From: Nitrospirota bacterium
Lineage (GTDB): Bacteria; Nitrospirota; Nitrospiria; JACQBW01
Length of the DNA stretch: 64,000 nt
NCBI GenBank assembly: GCA_016194305.1
Contig: JACQBW010000037.1
Span: 1-64,000 of the forward strand
Direction: 5' to 3'
The notes below the pieces were generated by a model. The model was not told the origin of the DNA. It made no database searches and saw only the letters and a program-made list of their open reading frames with translations. The position numbers and the translations under genes are program-made. Positions 14,820 through 49,520 of the stretch are shown here, one piece after another (position 1 is the first letter of the stretch; each line of letters opens with the position of its first letter).

Positions 14820-15854
14820 ATGACTATACTGCCCCGTCTGCGTCTGAGAGTCGTCTCGTTTCCTATGTGGGTTCTCACTGCCGGCGTTCTCCTTATTTTT
14901 TCGATTTCAGCCTGCTCTCCTAAGCTCGAGGTTTATCATAGAAGCCAATATCAGATGGGAACCATTGTGGATCTGAAAGTTGCCGCCTCTTCGGAAAAAG
15001 CGGCGGACGAGGCTATGAGTGCCGGCTTTGCAGAAATCAGGAGACTGGAAGAACTCCTGAGCGTCTACAAGGAGACCAGCGAATATTCAAAAATAAATCA
15101 AATGGCGGGAATTGAACCTGTCGCGGTCAGCCCGGAAACTTTTGAACTCGTTCAAAAGGGACTGGAGGCTGGAAAAATGACCGATGGAGGCTTTAATATT
15201 GCGATCGGCCCTGCTGTCATGCTATGGGGGGTCACGGAGTCTCACCATATCCCGTCCCAAAAAGAACTCGAACAGATCAGGCCGCTTGTCGATTTGAGCA
15301 AGGTGGTCGTCGATATCTCCCATCGCACTGTCTTTTTAACAGAAAAGGGGATGAAGATTGATTCCGGAGGAAACGGTAAAGGATTCGCCGCAGACAGGGT
15401 CAAGACGGTCTTGCAAAATTCGGGAATTCAGTCCGGTATCGTCGCGCTGGCAGGAGACGATAAAGTTTTTGGCAAGAGACCCGACGGAAAACCCTGGCGT
15501 GTCGCAATCTCCCACCCTCGAAAGAAGGGCGAAGTCCTTGCCTACCTTGAGCTGACAGACAAGGCCATTTCTACAGCCGGTGATTATGAACGTTTTTTTG
15601 AAAAAGACGGCGTGATCTATCATCATATTCTCGATCCCGTGACTCTCCAGCCCGCACGGGAATGTCAATCCGTGACACTCATCTCTGACGAAGGAATCAT
15701 TGCGGATAGTCTTGATACCGGAATTTTTGTGATGGGTCCTGAGAAAGGCATGGCACTGGTTGAAAAGCTTCCCTATTTGGGAGGAGTCATTGTCGATAAA
15801 AACGGTAAAATCCTTATCTCTTCGAATCTGAAAGACAAGGTCAAACTCCCCTGA
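14820..15854 (+). CDS. apbE: FAD:protein FMN transferase (ApbE), lipoprotein
   Basis: ApbE attaches FMN to Thr/Ser of exported flavoproteins such as NqrC or RnfG. The 344-residue protein has a signal peptide with lipobox ISAC (Cys32), then YQMGTIVDLKV, TDGGFNIAIGPAVMLWG, GKGFAADRV, YHHILDPVTLQP and the Mg-site region ADSLDTGIFVMG, which matches the E. coli type. Two motifs deviate: DLGG/DLS-type is DSGGN, and the usual VGG is LAGDD. Activity is likely but not certain. No flavoprotein target gene is in the window. Confidence 0.92.
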   Translation: MTILPRLRLRVVSFPMWVLTAGVLLIFSISACSPKLEVYHRSQYQMGTIVDLKVAASSEKAADEAMSAGFAEIRRLEELLSVYKETSEYSKINQMAGIEPVAVSPETFELVQKGLEAGKMTDGGFNIAIGPAVMLWGVTESHHIPSQKELEQIRPLVDLSKVVVDISHRTVFLTEKGMKIDSGGNGKGFAADRVKTVLQNSGIQSGIVALAGDDKVFGKRPDGKPWRVAISHPRKKGEVLAYLELTDKAISTAGDYERFFEKDGVIYHHILDPVTLQPARECQSVTLISDEGIIADSLDTGIFVMGPEKGMALVEKLPYLGGVIVDKNGKILISSNLKDKVKLP

Positions 15855-32317: not shown

Positions 32318-32491
32318 TCTGAAATTGATTTTGCAGGAATAGCCTGCCTAAAACCCGATTTAGAAACCTTTAATCATTTGAATTTTTTGACGATTTAAGC
32401 TATCCTTAATCCTAGTAGACTCGCTCTTGAATGGGTGTTTGTTTCTTGAAAGTGACTCATTTTTAAACCTCAAAAATATAGTTTAGATCCT

Positions 32492-33499
32492 TTGATTTTT
32501 CCCTCTTTTCTCTTTTCCGCTTTGTGTTTGTTCTTTCTGTTTGTTCCTAATGTCATCGCCGGGGGATACGGAGATCTGAAATCAAGTCTTCTTGTCGAAC
32601 TCAGGTCCAACTTCCAGCAGTTAAAAAGCATGGCAAACGAGCCTGCGCCGCTTCCACCGGCGGACAATGTGCCTCTGCGGATTTATGAGAATGGATTAAA
32701 CCTTCTCCATAACGGCGACGGCTATACGGCCATTCAAAAACTCAAAGAACTCCTCGCTTCCAGTCAGGTCTCGGACTCATTTAAAAAAGAAATACATGCC
32801 ACGCTCGGCTATATTTACCTGGATCAGCTCCGGCCGAAGGAAGCCCTGTTGGAATTTTCGGTTCTTGAAAAGGAACCTGCATTCAGAGAAACCGCTCTGA
32901 ACGGAATCGCCTGGAGTCTATTGGAAGAAGAAGAGTTTGTCAAAACTATCGCTATTTTTGAAGAGTTGGTCAATGAATATCCGGATGGAGAAAACAGTCC
33001 GGAGGCCTATTCCAAAATGGGCTTTTGTTATTCCCGTCTTCTCTCCTACCCTAACGGTGTTGCTTATTACCAAAAAGCCCTGCACCTCTATAACAAACGT
33101 ATCGAGACGCTTCACAGACTTCTTCAGGCTTCCCAAGAACCGACTTTATTTGAAAGGGAATTTATTTTTGTCCATTCTCCCCCGGATTGGAAATTATTGT
33201 TTCATCAGATGCAAACCACTTCCACCGGCGAGGAGTTCTTAAAAATGGCGGAGGAGTTTTTTAATCTAACCGAACGAATTAATAAAAATCCGGCTTTTCA
33301 GTCAAATGCAGGTACCGTCCGGAATTCTTTGGCGCCCATGAAAGTGCATATTCAAACGCTTATCCAGAAATATGTTCAGGAAAGCCTGATGGAAAGAGTG
33401 TCTATTTACCAGGATCTATCCTCGGACACCGCAGTCGAACTCGCAAGAAATATGGTAATGGAACAGTCTTTGCAGGCGCAAAACAAGAGCGGCCGATGA
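32492..33499 (+). CDS. Exported TPR-like protein of the ExbBD cluster
   Basis: A 335-residue protein with a hydrophobic signal sequence (LFSALCLFFLFVPNVIAGG) and helical repeats resembling TPRs around residues 65-190 (for example TLGYIYLDQLRPKEALLEF and AYSKMGFCYSRLLSYPNG). It probably sits in the periplasm. The start is uncertain: TTG 32492 gives a signal peptide without basic residues, while the frame stays open to 32456 and would add KPQKYSLDP. It is the first gene of a coupled seven-gene run. TPR proteins with ExbB/ExbD and AgmX-like proteins suggest an envelope-spanning complex. Confidence 0.8.
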   Translation: MIFPSFLFSALCLFFLFVPNVIAGGYGDLKSSLLVELRSNFQQLKSMANEPAPLPPADNVPLRIYENGLNLLHNGDGYTAIQKLKELLASSQVSDSFKKEIHATLGYIYLDQLRPKEALLEFSVLEKEPAFRETALNGIAWSLLEEEEFVKTIAIFEELVNEYPDGENSPEAYSKMGFCYSRLLSYPNGVAYYQKALHLYNKRIETLHRLLQASQEPTLFEREFIFVHSPPDWKLLFHQMQTTSTGEEFLKMAEEFFNLTERINKNPAFQSNAGTVRNSLAPMKVHIQTLIQKYVQESLMERVSIYQDLSSDTAVELARNMVMEQSLQAQNKSGR

Positions 33500-36288
33500 A
33501 AGGGTTATTTGTCTCTCTCCTATCGGCCTGTCTGGTCTTAAATTCAGTGAATCCTTCATCGGTCTATGGGCTCAAAATTGAAGATGAAAAGCTCAAAAAG
33601 ATCATTTCGAATATTATGGTCGGAAATGAAAATTCCTTAACTCAATCGGGTCAGGCTGAGGCACTGAAAGAATATGAATCTTTTCTGTCCCAATTTGATA
33701 TTTCCAACAACCAGCAGGCCGAATCGCTACTCCGGTTAGGCCATTTGATTATGGCTATGGAAGAAAATGAAGAAGAACTTCAGAAGATTCCAGTCGTTCC
33801 CCTCCGGCATCACAGAGATCATACCTATTCCATAGGAATTTATGAAAAACTCCGGGCCAATGCTGCCCTGTATCCCACCAATGACGAACTACTCTATCAA
33901 CTGGCCCATGGTTATGACGAGTCGGATAAAAAGGAACGGTCGCTTTCCCTTCTCAAAGAACTGGCCGACCGCTTTCCAAAGAGCAGTTATTATGCCGAAG
34001 CCCGGTTCAGAATCGGGGAATCGTATTTCAATGAGGGTAAATTTCCGGAAGCTTCGGTTTCGTATCTGAAAGGGCTGGAGTCCAATCCGGCCAATCCGTT
34101 AATGGATTTCATTTCTTATAAGCTCATCTGGTCTTACTTCAAAATGGGGGACTATCGAAGAACGGTCGATCGGGTCATCTCGTCTTTAAATCGATATTCT
34201 GTGCACCAGCCCAATGGGAAAACGCTTCTCGATATTGAATCACTTTCTGATTCCAGCTGGAATGAGGTCAAAGAACTGATTCATCTGGCAACGCTTTCCA
34301 TTGATTTCTGGGGTGGCACGGATAAAGCAAGGAGCTATTTTGACTTTCATGGACATGTCTCCTTTGAAAACCTGATATATCGGCCCTTGGGCCATCTCTA
34401 CCTGAATCGAGGAAAGTTTCAGGAAGCAGCCTATGCTTTTAACACCTTTCTTTCTTTATACCCAACTCATGAAGATGCCCCACTGTTTCAACTGGACCTG
34501 ATTGAGGCTTACCAGAAAGGCGAAAAACCCGAATTGGCTAAACAGGCCCGGGAATCACTCATTGAAAACTTCAAACCAGAAACAGCCTGGTGGAAAGCAA
34601 ACAACCAAACTGCACGGGAAAAAACCGCTCTCGTTCGAAAGGAAATACTCTTTCAACAGGCTCAGTCCTACCATGGGGAGGCCCAGAAATCAAATAAAAG
34701 AGGCGATTATCTAAATGCCATTACAAGTTATCAGAAATTTTTGTCCAATTTTCCAAAAGAAATGGAGGCTCCCCGAATTCACTTTTTTCTTGGAGAAGCT
34801 TTTTTTGAAACAGATCAGTTTGAACAGGCGGCTTCGGCTTATGAAACATCCGCTTATCAATACCCTTTACACCTGTACAGCCAGGACGCCGGATGGACCG
34901 CTCTGATTTCCTACGAAAAGGCGCTCATTCGGTCTCCCGATTCTTCCAAATCTCTTCAACAATCCCTGTTGAAATCGTGTGAATCTTATCTGAAAAACTT
35001 TCCCCATTCTCCAAAACGACAGACCGTTTTGTTTAAAGCGATGACCCTGTCGCTACAGACCGGAAATAGCAAAAATGGAAGAGCTTATGCGCAACAGATT
35101 CTTGACTCGCCGTTAGACATCGTTTCCGCGGAAATGATTGTTCAGACCCATTTCTTGCTGGCAAAAAACGCCTATGAGAACGGAGAATTCGATCGAGCAG
35201 AAGCCGAATTTAAAGAGACGGAGTCCTGGAGAAGAAGACCCGGGTATCATGATCCGGATGGTCCGCCTCAAAAGGAAATCATGGAATTTCTCGCTTCAAT
35301 TCAATATAAGAGAGCAGACCTCCTGAAAAACGAACTGAAGTGGAAGGAGGCCGCCAATGCATTCTATCACCTTTACGAGGAGTATCCGGAAAGCGAGTTG
35401 GCGGCCGTCTCCCTGATGAATTCCGGAAGTACGTTTTTGGAATCAAAAGACTATGATTCTGCATTAAACTCCTTCAACAAAGTCACCGTTTCCTATCCAA
35501 AATCCTCTTTTTATCAAGATGCAGCTTTGGCACTGGCTACGCTTTATGAAAGAAAGGGGAAATGGAACGAAGCCGCATCAGGATATGAACTCCTTCTTTC
35601 AAAGACTTCTGAATCCGATAAAAAGAACCGGTATTCTGACAAGCTCTATTCTCTTTACTACCGGGATGGCAACTGGCTAAAACTCAATCAGATTCTGAAA
35701 TCGGCATTTAAAGAATCCTCTCTGAAAAACTTGAAATATCTCTATTTTTATGGAAAATCAGCCAAAGAATTAAACATGGATGCTGATGTGCTTCTTTCGG
35801 CCGATCAGGCGCTGATTCTCCTCAATCAGAATGAACTGAAAGAACCTGAAGATGAAAAATGGGTGATGAAAGCAATGTTATTGAAAGGTGATATTCTCGC
35901 GCGGGAATTTGTCACATTGATTCTTTCAGATCCCATTGAAAAAAGCCTCCCGCTAAAAAAGGAAAAGCTTAAAGAGACCCTGGACACCTTTAATATCGCC
36001 GCCCAATCCGGATACCCGGACATTGCGCCGGAAGCGCTCTATCATATTGGCAGTCTCTTCGAACAATTCGCAAATGATCTGGTTAGGTCTGAAAGGCCCA
36101 AAGAATTGACACCGGAACAGAGGGAAATTTATGAAGGCCTTTTGACCAATCAGATCAAACCGTTTTACCAAAAAGCAATCGATGTCTATAAGCAATCCTT
36201 GCTCCTGGATAAACAGCTTGAAAATGAATGGGTTAAGAAAAGCGACGCCCGATACCGTCAGCTGATACTGGAAAATAAAGGGTCATGA
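33496..36288 (+). CDS. Large exported TPR protein of the ExbBD cluster
   Basis: A 930-residue exported protein: signal peptide (about 1-25, LLSACLVLNSVNPSSVYG), then tandem TPR-like helix pairs through most of its length, such as ARFRIGESYFNEGKFPEA, FFLGEAFFETDQFEQAA and SLMNSGSTFLESKDYDSA. The Cys in LLSAC is followed by LVLNS rather than a classical lipobox context, so lipidation is unlikely. It overlaps both neighbours by 4 nt. Long periplasmic TPR proteins of this kind occur in Glt-type gliding and related trans-envelope assemblies; the role here is inferred from context. Confidence 0.82.
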   Translation: MKGLFVSLLSACLVLNSVNPSSVYGLKIEDEKLKKIISNIMVGNENSLTQSGQAEALKEYESFLSQFDISNNQQAESLLRLGHLIMAMEENEEELQKIPVVPLRHHRDHTYSIGIYEKLRANAALYPTNDELLYQLAHGYDESDKKERSLSLLKELADRFPKSSYYAEARFRIGESYFNEGKFPEASVSYLKGLESNPANPLMDFISYKLIWSYFKMGDYRRTVDRVISSLNRYSVHQPNGKTLLDIESLSDSSWNEVKELIHLATLSIDFWGGTDKARSYFDFHGHVSFENLIYRPLGHLYLNRGKFQEAAYAFNTFLSLYPTHEDAPLFQLDLIEAYQKGEKPELAKQARESLIENFKPETAWWKANNQTAREKTALVRKEILFQQAQSYHGEAQKSNKRGDYLNAITSYQKFLSNFPKEMEAPRIHFFLGEAFFETDQFEQAASAYETSAYQYPLHLYSQDAGWTALISYEKALIRSPDSSKSLQQSLLKSCESYLKNFPHSPKRQTVLFKAMTLSLQTGNSKNGRAYAQQILDSPLDIVSAEMIVQTHFLLAKNAYENGEFDRAEAEFKETESWRRRPGYHDPDGPPQKEIMEFLASIQYKRADLLKNELKWKEAANAFYHLYEEYPESELAAVSLMNSGSTFLESKDYDSALNSFNKVTVSYPKSSFYQDAALALATLYERKGKWNEAASGYELLLSKTSESDKKNRYSDKLYSLYYRDGNWLKLNQILKSAFKESSLKNLKYLYFYGKSAKELNMDADVLLSADQALILLNQNELKEPEDEKWVMKAMLLKGDILAREFVTLILSDPIEKSLPLKKEKLKETLDTFNIAAQSGYPDIAPEALYHIGSLFEQFANDLVRSERPKELTPEQREIYEGLLTNQIKPFYQKAIDVYKQSLLLDKQLENEWVKKSDARYRQLILENKGS

Positions 36289-36566
36289 TGATGAAACAGG
36301 TTAAATTCATTTTCGGAGTTATTCTCCTCATATTCGTTTTCGGATATTCATTCAACCCGGTTCATGCAGAGGAACTCCGCAAGATGTCGAATGATCCGGT
36401 CGTGCCGAAATCATCTACTTTCAGGGAGTCTGAAATTTTGGGAACACTTGAAAGGCCACAGTTGAATACAGAGCTCCGGTGGAAAGGTCCCTTGATTAAT
36501 AATTTTAATTCACCGCAATCACATCGAACCTTCAAAAAGGAAATATTTCGTCCGGTTCACCCTTAA
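36285..36566 (+). CDS. Small exported protein of the ExbBD cluster
   Basis: A 93-residue protein with an N-terminal signal peptide (about 1-28, ending PVHAEE) and a short polar mature part of about 65 residues without a known domain. The ATG overlaps the TPR gene stop (ATGA). It is retained between the TPR and ExbB genes, so it is probably a small periplasmic component of the same complex. Confidence 0.7.
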   Translation: MMMKQVKFIFGVILLIFVFGYSFNPVHAEELRKMSNDPVVPKSSTFRESEILGTLERPQLNTELRWKGPLINNFNSPQSHRTFKKEIFRPVHP

Positions 36567-36616
36567 AAAAATATAAAAATGAGACCCAGCAATTGGCCCT
36601 GGAAAGAGGAGTATAA

Positions 36617-37264
36617 ATGGAAATTATTATTTTTCTGATCGGAAGTTTCAAAGCAGGCGGCATTTTTATGTATGCTATTTTGGCGGTATTGGCTATTGGA
36701 ACAGCGATTATCATAGAAAGATTATTATCGCTATTCTACAGGAACCGGGGCGATGGAAAGATTCTCTGGAAAAAGGTAAAAAATCTCGTTGGTAAGGGCC
36801 AGCTGAAGGAGGCGCTCGAACTCTGTGATGGGACCGGAACTTACCTCTCCCATGTTCTTGCCTCAGGAATCCAGAAAAGAATTCAGTCCACATCTGAAAA
36901 GGAAATCCAGGGAGCCTTTGAAGAAACGCTGCTTGAAATTCAGCCTTACCTGGAAAAACGGATTCACTATCTCTATGCGCTATCGAATGTTTCGACACTT
37001 CTTGGGCTTCTCGGAACAGTTACCGGTCTGATTCAATCTTTCACCGCGGTTTCGGCTTCGGACCCGGCTCAAAAGTCGGTTCTCCTGGCAAGTGGCATTT
37101 CACTGGCGCTCAATAATACCGCGTTCGGACTCCTCATCGCGATTATCCTGATGCTTTCCTACTCCTTTATGCAGTCTAAGAGCGCTACACTTGAAGATGA
37201 GATCGATGAATACTCTCTGAAGCTTCTCCACCTGTTAACCGAATCGAATCCGAAATCCTCATGA
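36617..37264 (+). CDS. ExbB/TolQ/MotA-family proton channel subunit
   Basis: A 215-residue inner-membrane protein with three membrane segments (about 12-34, 118-140 and 160-182), the large cytoplasmic loop between the first two, and conserved pore residues in SNVSTLLGLLGTVTGLIQSF and SLALNNTAFGLLIAI. These proteins form pentameric proton channels with an ExbD/TolR dimer in the pore and drive TonB, Tol or Agl machines. AGAGGAG precedes the ATG. It overlaps the next gene by 4 nt. Confidence 0.92.
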   Translation: MEIIIFLIGSFKAGGIFMYAILAVLAIGTAIIIERLLSLFYRNRGDGKILWKKVKNLVGKGQLKEALELCDGTGTYLSHVLASGIQKRIQSTSEKEIQGAFEETLLEIQPYLEKRIHYLYALSNVSTLLGLLGTVTGLIQSFTAVSASDPAQKSVLLASGISLALNNTAFGLLIAIILMLSYSFMQSKSATLEDEIDEYSLKLLHLLTESNPKSS

Positions 37265-37743
37265 ATCTGAACCGGGAAAAACGAAAAAAGAGAAGGGCTC
37301 AGGCGGACGAAGCGATTCATATCGTCGCCCTCTGGAATTTGATGCTGATCTTGATCCCCTTTCTCCTTCTATCCGCCGCATTTTCAGAGACCGCCATTCT
37401 CAATCTCATGATACCCGCCGTTACCGCCTCTCCCTCCGAACCCAAACCCACCAGTCCTGTAAAAGTCCCCATACAGCTCACGCTCAAAATGGACGGCATG
37501 ATCCTCGAACAGGGACCTTCGCAAAGGAACCTGATTCCCCTTCGCGAAGGGCGGTACGATATCACAGCACTTGCAGCATTGCTGGAGGACTTTAAAAGGA
37601 AGAACGCAACCGAAGAGACGATTATTCTTTCCAGTTCATCGCATGTTTCTTATGAAACGCTGATTCAGGCGATGGACCAATGTCGGAGCGCGGGATTTCC
37701 AGAAATCTCGCTTGGGTCGGACTCCCCCGGAGAAACCCTATGA
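37261..37743 (+). CDS. ExbD/TolR paralogue with Asn at the channel position
   Basis: A 160-residue protein with ExbD/TolR layout: basic N terminus (NLNREKRKKRR), one membrane helix (about 22-42) and a periplasmic domain (about 65-155). The membrane start reads AIHIVALWNLMLILIPFLLL; the position taken by the essential Asp in ExbD/TolR (PLIDVML) is Asn. By analogy it should not carry protons itself, unlike the next gene. Overlaps of 4 nt on both sides support one complex. Confidence 0.78.
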   Translation: MNLNREKRKKRRAQADEAIHIVALWNLMLILIPFLLLSAAFSETAILNLMIPAVTASPSEPKPTSPVKVPIQLTLKMDGMILEQGPSQRNLIPLREGRYDITALAALLEDFKRKNATEETIILSSSSHVSYETLIQAMDQCRSAGFPEISLGSDSPGETL

Positions 37744-38201
37744 TTCGGAACAAATCGAGGCGTCATCTCGAACCTCCGAGATTAAATCTGACCGCTATGG
37801 TGGACGTATTTACCGTTCTGCTTGTATTCTTGCTAAAAAGCTACTCTGCCGAAGGGACCCTGAATTCTCCTGTTCCTGTCAATCTCCCGATCTCCACGGC
37901 GAACTTGTCAGGTGATCTGAATCTGGTTGTTACCGTGACAGAAAAAGAACTGTTTCTTGACCAAACTAAAATTGTGGATTCCTCGCTTTTTTCTACTGAC
38001 GTTCCTAACATTCCAAAATTAGATGAAGCGGTGGTTTCTCTCATGCATAAAAACAATACGCCTTCCAGTCAAAAACAGGTGACTATTCAAGGCGATAAAC
38101 GAATCCCATACTACCTCCTTAGAAAGATCATTTATACTTTTACTCAAAACGGCTTCACAGATATTTCTCTTGCCGTCTATCCGAAAGAGAGCGGGAAATG
38201 A
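37740..38201 (+). CDS. ExbD/TolR-family protein with conserved channel Asp
   Basis: A 153-residue ExbD/TolR protein: basic N terminus (MIRNKSRRHLEPP), membrane helix LTAMVDVFTVLLVFLL containing the conserved Asp, and a periplasmic domain with VTIQGDKRIPYYLLRKII typical of the family. The frame is open to 37680, but ATG 37740 overlaps the previous stop (ATGA) and gives a normal N terminus. It is probably the protonatable partner of the preceding paralogue. Confidence 0.88.
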   Translation: MIRNKSRRHLEPPRLNLTAMVDVFTVLLVFLLKSYSAEGTLNSPVPVNLPISTANLSGDLNLVVTVTEKELFLDQTKIVDSSLFSTDVPNIPKLDEAVVSLMHKNNTPSSQKQVTIQGDKRIPYYLLRKIIYTFTQNGFTDISLAVYPKESGK

Positions 38202-39172
38202 GCAGCAGGGTCGATGTTCACAAGATTGATGACCGGCTCGAGTTTAATCTGATTCTCGCGGGTACGTCTGCATTCTATCTGGCTTTGATCGTCCTCTTGT
38301 CTATACTCCCCTTGAACTGGAATCACATCCGACCCCAATCGACCCGGCCAGCAAGGAAGATCTCTCTACTCGTTTCTCCGCCCAAGCCTGCTCCCCGGCC
38401 GGTTCTTCCGCTACCTATTCCAAAACCGGAGAAAAAGAAACCTCCAGTTCCCATTCGTCCTAAAAAGGCCGCAAAGGAACCTTCACCCGTTCCAGAAAGG
38501 CCCCCTGAACCAAGCGCCGAAGAGCTTGAACAAAAAAGGTCAGCAGCCCTTGCCTTGCAAAAAGCCAGGGAGCTTGAAAAAAATAAGGAGATTGCAAACA
38601 ATAAAATTGCTTCGCTTTTTGGAAACAGTGCGGAAGATTTGATTCAAAACAAAAATTTGAATGTCATTGCCGCCAAAAATCCTGCGGGTCACACCGGAGT
38701 CAAGGAGATCCCTGCGGCTCCCAAGGGAGAGGATTTGCAGATCCCGATTCAGAATCTGGATACGGATTCGATTCTGAAAGGCCTCCCCGCGGGAAAAGAT
38801 AACCAGTCAACGGCATTATTTGGTGAGCACGAGACGAAACACTTTGGCTCCGGAGGTGGCACGGGGAAAATTGAAAGTATCCGATCTCCTGAAGACTTCG
38901 AAAGGTCATTTAAAGCTTACGAAGGAAGGTTGAAATCGTTTTATGACAAAACCCTCCAGTCAAAACCGGCTTTAGCGGGAAAGATGTTGGTCAAGATTAT
39001 TCTTGCCGCCGACGGATCAGTCATCCGATGCGATATCCTTTCCAGCACACTCAATGACAGAACATTTGAGGAAGAGATCCGGCGGATGATCCAGGAACAA
39101 TTTCGCTTCTCCAGAATTGCACAGGGGGAAGAGTCTTACAATCATTCGCTGAAGTTTCACCCGGAGAAATGA
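38198..39172 (+). CDS. TonB-like protein with AgmX/PglI-type C-terminal domain
   Basis: A 324-residue protein: short cytoplasmic N terminus, one membrane helix (about 18-40), a Pro/Lys-rich stretch (about 50-105, KPAPRPVLPLPIPKPEKKKP), an Ala/Glu coiled part, and a C-terminal domain (about 230-324) reading GKMLVKIILAADGSV, then FEEEIRRMIQEQFRF. This pattern resembles the C-terminal domain of myxobacterial AgmX/PglI and other TonB-like proteins. It likely transmits energy from the ExbB-ExbD motor across the periplasm. It overlaps the upstream gene by 4 nt and the convergent gene by 16 nt. Confidence 0.82.
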   Translation: MSSRVDVHKIDDRLEFNLILAGTSAFYLALIVLLSILPLNWNHIRPQSTRPARKISLLVSPPKPAPRPVLPLPIPKPEKKKPPVPIRPKKAAKEPSPVPERPPEPSAEELEQKRSAALALQKARELEKNKEIANNKIASLFGNSAEDLIQNKNLNVIAAKNPAGHTGVKEIPAAPKGEDLQIPIQNLDTDSILKGLPAGKDNQSTALFGEHETKHFGSGGGTGKIESIRSPEDFERSFKAYEGRLKSFYDKTLQSKPALAGKMLVKIILAADGSVIRCDILSSTLNDRTFEEEIRRMIQEQFRFSRIAQGEESYNHSLKFHPEK

Positions 39173-48260: not shown

Positions 48261-49520
48261 TCAAGAGGATGAATCGCAAGCGACGTGATTATCCGCAGCC
48301 TGTAAATCTTTGGGCTCCATTCCTTTTTCAATTGGAATCTTTTCATCATAAAGAATTGTCTCGATTGGGGTCGGATCTTCAGCAGAAAGACCGTAACGTT
48401 TGATTAATTTCTGATGCGCCCGTGGCGTCATAATATGATAGCTGACTTTGGCCTCAAGAGTAAGTTTTTCTCCGTCAGACGGAATCCAGTACGAAAAAGA
48501 AAAATTTCTTTCTTCAAGAGGATTGAGACGGTTGTCGTAATATTCGAAAATGACCGGTTTCCAGATGAGCCACCTCCCTATTGTTTTTAGGGAATGTTGA
48601 ACTCTTTGACCTTTACCATTCGTGACGGTAAATTCAACCGTAAAATAGCGATCAGGGTCACCGGTCGGGAGGTTATGTCCCGCTCCCCTGTTTTTCAAAG
48701 TCAGAACATAATTCGCCTTAACCCCGGGAGCATAGGCCATTCGGTCTGATTTCAATTCGACCTGGAGTGCCCTTTGAAGCATTTCGGGCCGGTGCCCCCC
48801 CCACCATAAATGTTGGCGGACTTCCCTGACCGGACCGCCGGGGACCAAAGCCCTTTCTATTTTCGGCATATGACAGTCCTGGCAAATTATCCCCTTTTTT
48901 GCGTAAGGTCCGTTTTCCCACTCCACCTGCGTATTACAGGGGTTGCCCCTGTAAAACATGAATTTTTCCTTCGGGACATGATGACAGTCTAGGCAAAGCC
49001 GGGCGGTTCGAAATCTCGGATCAAACGCCGTCGGATGCGGGGCCTGGAGGTCATTAAATGGACCATAGATCGTTCCGTTTCGAAGATGACAGGTCGCGCA
49101 AGAGATTCCCTCCTCACGGAATTGAGGATCAAAGCGGGGATTCTTGATTCTAACGGGCCGGTCTGCCCTTTGATTCTGCAGCGCCTGTATTAGAAACTCC
49201 TGTTGATTTTCAACCGGAGTGTGGCAGTTCAGACAAACCCAAATCTGTTGATCTTTTTTCCAATAAGCCTGAAAAAAGGGATCTTTCCAGGCGTTCCCGT
49301 GAATGGATCCTTCCCACTCCCGGTAAATTTCAGTGTGACAGACGCCGCAGTCACTTGCTTTAATTCCAGTCAATCCGGCCGGAATGGCCTGGTAGGGAAT
49401 GGGTTTATTAAACGGCGGTGCAATTTTAAAGATAACGGGAGAATAAATAAAATGATTGTACCCTTCAAAAAGGAGAAATCCGATCAAAACAAGAATCGAT
49501 GCCCCTATTATCTTTTTCAC
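48261..49520 (-). CDS. Membrane-anchored pentaheme c-type cytochrome
   Basis: A 419-residue protein with an N-terminal signal anchor (about 5-22) and five CxxCH heme sites: CGVCH (58-62), CLNCH (96-100), CATCH (141-145), CLDCH (176-180) and CQDCH (213-217). The context CGVCHTEIYREWEGSIHG resembles the cytochrome c554 family. Residues ~250-390 form a beta-rich, heme-free domain (YVLTLKNRGAGHNLPTGDPDRY). It should work in periplasmic electron transfer. The start is GTG, overlapping the nfo stop as GTGA, so it is coupled to a DNA-repair gene. Confidence 0.9.
   Translation of the reverse strand: MKKIIGASILVLIGFLLFEGYNHFIYSPVIFKIAPPFNKPIPYQAIPAGLTGIKASDCGVCHTEIYREWEGSIHGNAWKDPFFQAYWKKDQQIWVCLNCHTPVENQQEFLIQALQNQRADRPVRIKNPRFDPQFREEGISCATCHLRNGTIYGPFNDLQAPHPTAFDPRFRTARLCLDCHHVPKEKFMFYRGNPCNTQVEWENGPYAKKGIICQDCHMPKIERALVPGGPVREVRQHLWWGGHRPEMLQRALQVELKSDRMAYAPGVKANYVLTLKNRGAGHNLPTGDPDRYFTVEFTVTNGKGQRVQHSLKTIGRWLIWKPVIFEYYDNRLNPLEERNFSFSYWIPSDGEKLTLEAKVSYHIMTPRAHQKLIKRYGLSAEDPTPIETILYDEKIPIEKGMEPKDLQAADNHVACDSSS

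Follow-up and report, generated by a model that had tools for sequence, protein, structure and literature searches.

Organization of the gene cluster

The window analyzed here is a stretch of 64,000 nucleotides (positions 1 to 64,000 of contig JACQBW010000037.1) from Nitrospirota bacterium GCA_016194305.1, whose genome of 2.27 Mb is distributed over 37 contigs (G000 of family f1 in our genome set). The relatives used for comparison are Nitrospirota MAGs, and contigs end inside some of their loci. Seven genes on the + strand occupy approximately 32.46-39.17 kb in the order TPR1, TPR2, SP, ExbB, ExbD1, ExbD2, and AgmX-type. The first two encode exported TPR proteins: TPR1 (32492..33499, 335 aa from a TTG start) is the shortened counterpart of a GltC-like protein of about 620 aa in relatives, and TPR2 (33496..36288, 930 aa) is GltD-like by position and size. 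They are followed by SP (36285..36566), a small exported protein of 93 aa with a signal peptide and without known domain. The motor genes encode an ExbB/AglR-type proton channel subunit with a MotA_ExbB profile (36617..37264, 215 aa) and two ExbD/TolR paralogues, namely ExbD1 (37261..37743, 160 aa), in which Asn replaces the channel Asp (ALWNLML), and ExbD2 (37740..38201), which keeps it (AMVDVFT). The last gene (38198..39172, 324 aa) encodes a force transducer of the AgmX/GltG type with a TonB fold, assigned by NF033768 and the predicted fold. An earlier reading of this DNA (the original prediction) had named the same content, in which a TonB-like protein accompanies ExbB, two ExbDs, and three exported proteins, two of them of the TPR type and one small; this was confirmed, with all seven ORFs present on the + strand.

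The nearly universal 4 nt overlaps that had been described were likewise confirmed. Overlaps of this length (ATGA) join TPR1/TPR2, TPR2/SP, ExbB/ExbD1, and ExbD2/AgmX, and ExbD1 and ExbD2 share 4 nt as well, provided that translation of ExbD2 begins at ATG 37740, which judging from its homologues is probably the case. The only intergenic gap in the operon, 50 nt in length, separates SP from ExbB. The TPR1 frame is open from 32456 (codon CTC), and its first ATG, GTG, or TTG is the TTG at 32492; this start is uncertain, and initiation at ATT 32459 would give a better signal peptide. Scans of the operon for promoters and terminators gave results no better than shuffled sequences.

The ORF list contained no TonB-dependent receptor, TolB, or Pal among the neighbors of the operon, as the original prediction had noted, and the genes of the Tol and TonB systems were located on other contigs. 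Contig C1 carries a tolQ-tolR-tolA-tolB-ybgF set. A canonical tonB gene lies beside a receptor gene on contig C10 (L158); its product scored 67 bits and has the His residue in its TM helix. No exbB or exbD adjoins this tonB, and no ExbB besides TolQ was found elsewhere in the genome, which encodes five TonB-dependent receptor plug domains. MotAB pairs were detected on C8 and C7. A plain TonB system, a plain Tol system, and a flagellar stator were put aside as identities of the operon on the basis of profile scores and of these separate genes.

Motor subunits and an Asn/Asp split between the two ExbD paralogues

The window ExbB matched Pfam MotA_ExbB with 91.8 bits (cut-off 22.9), and ExbD1 and ExbD2 matched Pfam ExbD (PF02472) with 58.3 and 54.8 bits, respectively (cut-off 25.4). 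The best equivalog matches were the TolQ model for ExbB and the TolR model for ExbD2, both far under their cut-offs. Searching the PDB sequences with ExbB returned nothing other than TolQ, ExbB, and weak hits to MotA. In the ExbB family, the motif reads GISxAxNxTAFGL, and the Glu of the ExbB/TolQ motif GIAEAL is replaced. In the ExbB tree, which does not include AglR and has long branches, the window protein was separated from TolQ/ExbB together with homologues from Marinobacter and other Gammaproteobacteria (support 100/99).

At the channel Asp position, 93 of 94 loci have Asn in ExbD1, and 91 of 91 have Asp in ExbD2. The alignment places Asp at the same position in E. coli ExbD, in E. coli TolR, and in the genome's own TolR. 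The sole ExbD1 with Asp instead of Asn is that of L041 in G012, a genome with a second operon of the same type. For Myxococcus xanthus, both AglQ and AglS have been described as having Asp, and the choice between homodimer and heterodimer was left open (PMC9389320). A homodimer of ExbD1 could not carry protons; therefore, a single axle probably contains both paralogues. The residue pattern thus points to an ExbD1-ExbD2 heterodimer and a motor with a single Asp as the probable arrangement. Such a nearly perfect Asn/Asp split, which is new here, argues for the heterodimer and would make the question of the AglQ/AglS dimer testable by single point mutations.

The AgmX-type transducer

The transducer consists of a TM helix, a Pro-rich linker, and a C-terminal domain at about residues 231-320. 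According to the original prediction, a better match to TonB or TolA than to AgmX/PglI would have spoken against the proposed relationship. The reverse was found: NF033768 (AgmX/PglI domain) scored 44.3 (cut-off 40), whereas TIGR01352 (tonB_Cterm), with its cut-off of 27.1, reached only 18.7. As a control, the TonB and TolA-like proteins encoded elsewhere in the genome matched the TonB model and not NF033768, so the AgmX/PglI call is specific. Among transducer homologues, the AgmX/PglI domain was detected in 32 of 32 and the GltG model in 31 of 32 (best E-value 2.9e-35), with the window protein far under the GltG equivalog cut-off (29.5 versus 650). AlphaFold predicted the C-terminal domain as helix-strand-strand-helix-strand with pLDDT above 90, and Foldseek paired it with TonB C-terminal domains at probabilities of 0.99-1.00, with no E-value below 0.001. 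The TM-helix His, through which TonB and TolA bind their respective motors (PMC12204202), is present in the genome's TonB and TolA and absent from the window transducer and from 39 of 41 alignment rows. The cytoplasmic N-terminus is short and gave no FHA match in Pfam.

A probable reduced version of a known core complex

In relatives, the full operon comprises nine genes, i.e. U1, TPR1, TPR2, TPR3, SP, ExbB, ExbD1, ExbD2, and AgmX. Sizes and positions suggest the correspondences TPR1=GltC, TPR2=GltD, TPR3=GltE, and AgmX=GltG. The window TPR1, which is 38.6% identical to that of G002 (L037), reached 24.2 bits with TPR_1, just under the cut-off; the GltC model NF033756 weakly matched 3 of 33 TPR1 homologues and did not match the window protein. 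TPR2 contains Pfam TPRs, is 50-54% identical to its f1 relatives, and is orthologous across three phyla. It has a candidate lipobox (LSAC), and clear lipoboxes occur in most of the orthologues inspected. In the NCBIfam search it matched the YbgF/CpoB model and no GltD model. For TPR3, the GltE model matched 25 of 26 homologues, which general TPR models match too. SP shares a conserved core, G-x-x-E-x-P...W, in Nitrospirota and Gammaproteobacteria, and the signal helix was the only informative part of its structure model. SP resembles GltF in its size, its signal peptide, and its place in the operon, a correspondence by position only.

TPR3 was found neither between TPR2 and SP nor elsewhere in the window, and U1, an exported protein, was found neither at the locus nor in the whole window genome. 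As TPR1 is also shortened, we filed the operon as a reduced variant and not as a complete core complex. The kind of machine is already known. Luciano et al. (2011) defined a core complex that unites GltC, D, E, and G with AglR, Q, and S; it occurs in Geobacter, Fibrobacter, and Gammaproteobacteria including Marinobacter, is not tied to gliding, and is accompanied by one further gene that has no homologue in Myxococcales or Bdellovibrionales (PMC3169522). The Agl-Glt and Nfs machines of Myxococcus are thought to derive from this complex (PMC3169522), which Wartel et al. (2013) regarded as a possible basal transport machinery (PMC3858216). The window operon is a version of this complex: a single cluster combines an ExbB and two ExbDs with two exported TPR proteins, one large and the other smaller, and with an AgmX/PglI transducer, and the same block is present in Marinobacter, a named carrier (PMC3169522). 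The link to the Myxococcus machines runs via NCBIfam models and this Marinobacter synteny. The window's family differs in that it has no GltE-like TPR3 and no U1 at the locus, in a TPR1 of about half the length, and in a transducer without the FHA domain of M. xanthus GltG. The ancestral or diverged relative of Agl-Glt that had been predicted is therefore supported, as a kind already described (PMC3169522) and here reduced, without the GltE-like gene. New here, judged against the open-access literature, is that the window's family carries this reduced version lacking the GltE-like lipoprotein and U1. The comparison supplies candidate parts (SP and U1) and a recurrent outer-membrane module for the machine beyond myxobacteria, and the persistence of a stripped-down form in Nitrospirota helps to define the minimal engine.

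Conservation of the operon

A genome-wide scan was seeded on ExbB alone and the best 80 matches were kept, a procedure that favors near relatives and yields loci that are not independent. These 80 matches came mostly from Gammaproteobacteria (including Marinobacter and Microbulbifer), with one from Nitrospinota. Where enough flanking sequence was available among them, the downstream genes were ExbD1 (73/76), ExbD2 (71/72), and the AgmX-type gene (65/66), and the upstream genes were TPR2 (70/74), SP (61/74), TPR3 (65/74), and U1 (45/55). Gene order is thus conserved across Nitrospirota, Nitrospinota, and Gammaproteobacteria. The original prediction had called for a synteny search with the seven-gene block and would have been weakened by TPR genes that are not conserved with the channel genes. 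Instead, dozens of genomes from three phyla contain the block in the same order, which is more than chance, and TPR2 lies upstream in 70 of the 74 loci.

Within a set of 58 relatives, family f1, to which the window belongs, and several further families had the block, which was not found in the large family f2. A phylum-wide sample revealed an ExbB of this type in 35 of 396 Nitrospirota genomes, with a bimodal score distribution (above 180 bits for these and at most 131 for all other ExbB/TolQ matches). Plasmid records contained only distant matches to ExbB and no match to TPR2.

Association with a flavinylation module and with cytochrome genes

In Nitrospirota as well as Gammaproteobacteria (e.g. 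L056, L119, L154, and L175), the full operon sits downstream of genes encoding a TIGR04565 barrel, TlpA, DUF4266, DUF3570, and ApbE. Among the 58 relatives, strong U1 matches, strong TIGR04565 barrel matches, and an adjacent DUF3570 gene occurred in exactly the same nine genomes. Likewise, at 35 of the 44 U1 loci among the best 80 ExbB matches, the same strand carried at least one of ApbE, TlpA, DUF3570, and the barrel immediately upstream. The full version is thus genomically coupled to an outer-membrane barrel and an ApbE/DUF3570 flavinylation module, a coupling that is new here. ApbE flavinylates DUF3570 (PMC8238504). The ApbE-DUF3570-DUF4266-thioredoxin cluster of that study, whose main text does not mention ExbB, adjoins the full operon directly upstream in relatives. 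In M. xanthus, the barrels GltA/B bind and stabilize GltC (PMC4488436), so a barrel next to a GltC-like gene makes sense.

The window genome, in contrast, has no match to DUF3570 or TIGR04565, and of this cluster it contains only a lone ApbE gene (14820-15854) in the window, unlinked to the operon. The module does not explain the window's own machine and, with DUF3570, barrel, and U1 all missing from the genome, was rejected as part of its system.

In Nitrospirota without the module at the locus, the operon often adjoins genes for c-type cytochromes, which are convergent in f1 and f5 and lie on the same strand just upstream in G004. Examples are found at 6946-8202 of L037, 6487-7317 of L036, and 629-1228 of L054, and also in L040, L042, L048, and L049. 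A multiheme cytochrome gene is located at 48261-49520 of the window, about 9 kb from the operon; its homologue is the direct convergent neighbor in G001 and G002, indicating that the region was rearranged. At G000:C15:23835-27765, we noted a tandem array of four genes homologous to the triheme cytochrome family that neighbors the operon in relatives.

Proposed function and alternative explanations

Taking the sequence evidence together, we consider it fairly likely that the seven genes specify a reduced machine of the Agl-Glt/Nfs core complex type, which spans the envelope and is driven by protons to transduce force. We infer its stoichiometry and path of force transmission as follows. A pentamer of the AglR-type ExbB would surround an axle made of one ExbD1 and one ExbD2 helix. 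Because ExbD1 carries Asn, protons are proposed to pass via the Asp of ExbD2 only. The resulting force would move the AgmX/GltG-type transducer, which would be anchored in the inner membrane and reach across the periplasm with its TonB-like C-terminal domain to engage a scaffold of TPR1, TPR2, and SP. This scaffold may relay the motion to a target in the outer membrane, by which components of the envelope or surface would be moved or remodeled. The output is most likely surface or outer-membrane transport, and not motility by itself.

Several other functions were weighed against this machine. The ExbB-ExbD pair and the AgmX-type protein might energize the five TonB-dependent receptors of the genome, a system with which they share the motor superfamily and the TonB fold of the C-terminal domain; the only canonical tonB having no exbB/exbD beside it would fit such a role. 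However, the operon differs in its two ExbDs, its TPR partners, the lack of a receptor, and the replaced ExbB/TolQ Glu, and its transducer lacks the His and stays under the TonB cut-off (18.7/27.1), whereas the TonB at C10 has both the His and 67 bits. Moreover, TPR genes accompany the channel in 70 of 74 loci among the best 80 ExbB matches, in the relative G002 the tonB gene has a separate ExbB next to it, and TolQR could serve the C10 TonB, so that we regard this role as improbable. A second Tol-like system for envelope integrity or division would be in line with the distant TolQ/TolR equivalog matches and with the YbgF/CpoB match of TPR2, but seems hardly more plausible given the tolQ-tolR-tolA-tolB-ybgF set on C1, the missing TolB and Pal at the operon, and the distance of the ExbB clade from TolQ. 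That the operon drives gliding as in Myxococcus is similarly hard to credit: motor family and AgmX/GltG-type transducer are the same, but in Myxococcus the core complex does not suffice for gliding, and it is also carried by bacteria that are not known to glide (PMC3169522). Moreover, of the gliding components covered here, a TIGR04565 barrel (the possible GltA/B counterpart) was missing from the genome, a GltE-like gene from the window, and an FHA domain from the transducer. A further difference from the Agl-Glt gliding and Agl-Nfs spore-coat machines is the Asn of ExbD1.

Less remote, though still rather unlikely, is that the operon drives an extracytosolic redox module of the outer membrane, either a flavinylated DUF3570 barrel or c-type cytochromes. 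The joint occurrence of U1, barrel, and DUF3570 in nine of the 58 relatives, the module genes upstream of most U1 loci, and the cytochrome genes adjoining many Nitrospirota operons without the module all speak for such a function. Yet adjacency is not function, convergent neighbors are weak evidence in cytochrome-rich genomes, and both DUF3570 and the barrel are missing from the window genome, where the cytochrome neighbor lies about 9 kb away.

The core-complex type of machine may also share its motor. G006 and G011 each have one locus (L039/L154 and L043/L153, respectively) with the arrangement U1-TPR1-TPR2-TPR3-SP-AgmX, in which SP adjoins AgmX and channel genes are absent; the sole ExbB of this type sits at a second locus of the same genome. 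This suggests, for the first time here, a motor shared between two envelope assemblies in both genomes, a probable likeness to M. xanthus, where AglRQS is common to the Glt and Nfs machines (PMC3858216). A more far-reaching version, which we put forward only tentatively and consider doubtful as a whole, would be a 5:2 motor with an obligate ExbD1-ExbD2 axle and one proton-carrying Asp, unlike the known two-Asp motors, that several envelope assemblies can share in trans and whose full form acts on a flavinylated outer-membrane barrel. If true, this joint reading would link proton-driven force with extracytosolic redox chemistry.

We also noted four loci (L072, L097, L118, and L128) with ExbB-ExbD1-ExbD2-AgmX in the absence of the TPR genes. 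Here, large proteins of about 900-1400 aa and, at some of the loci, a PP2C-like phosphatase precede the motor genes; perhaps these loci represent another machine built on the same type of motor.
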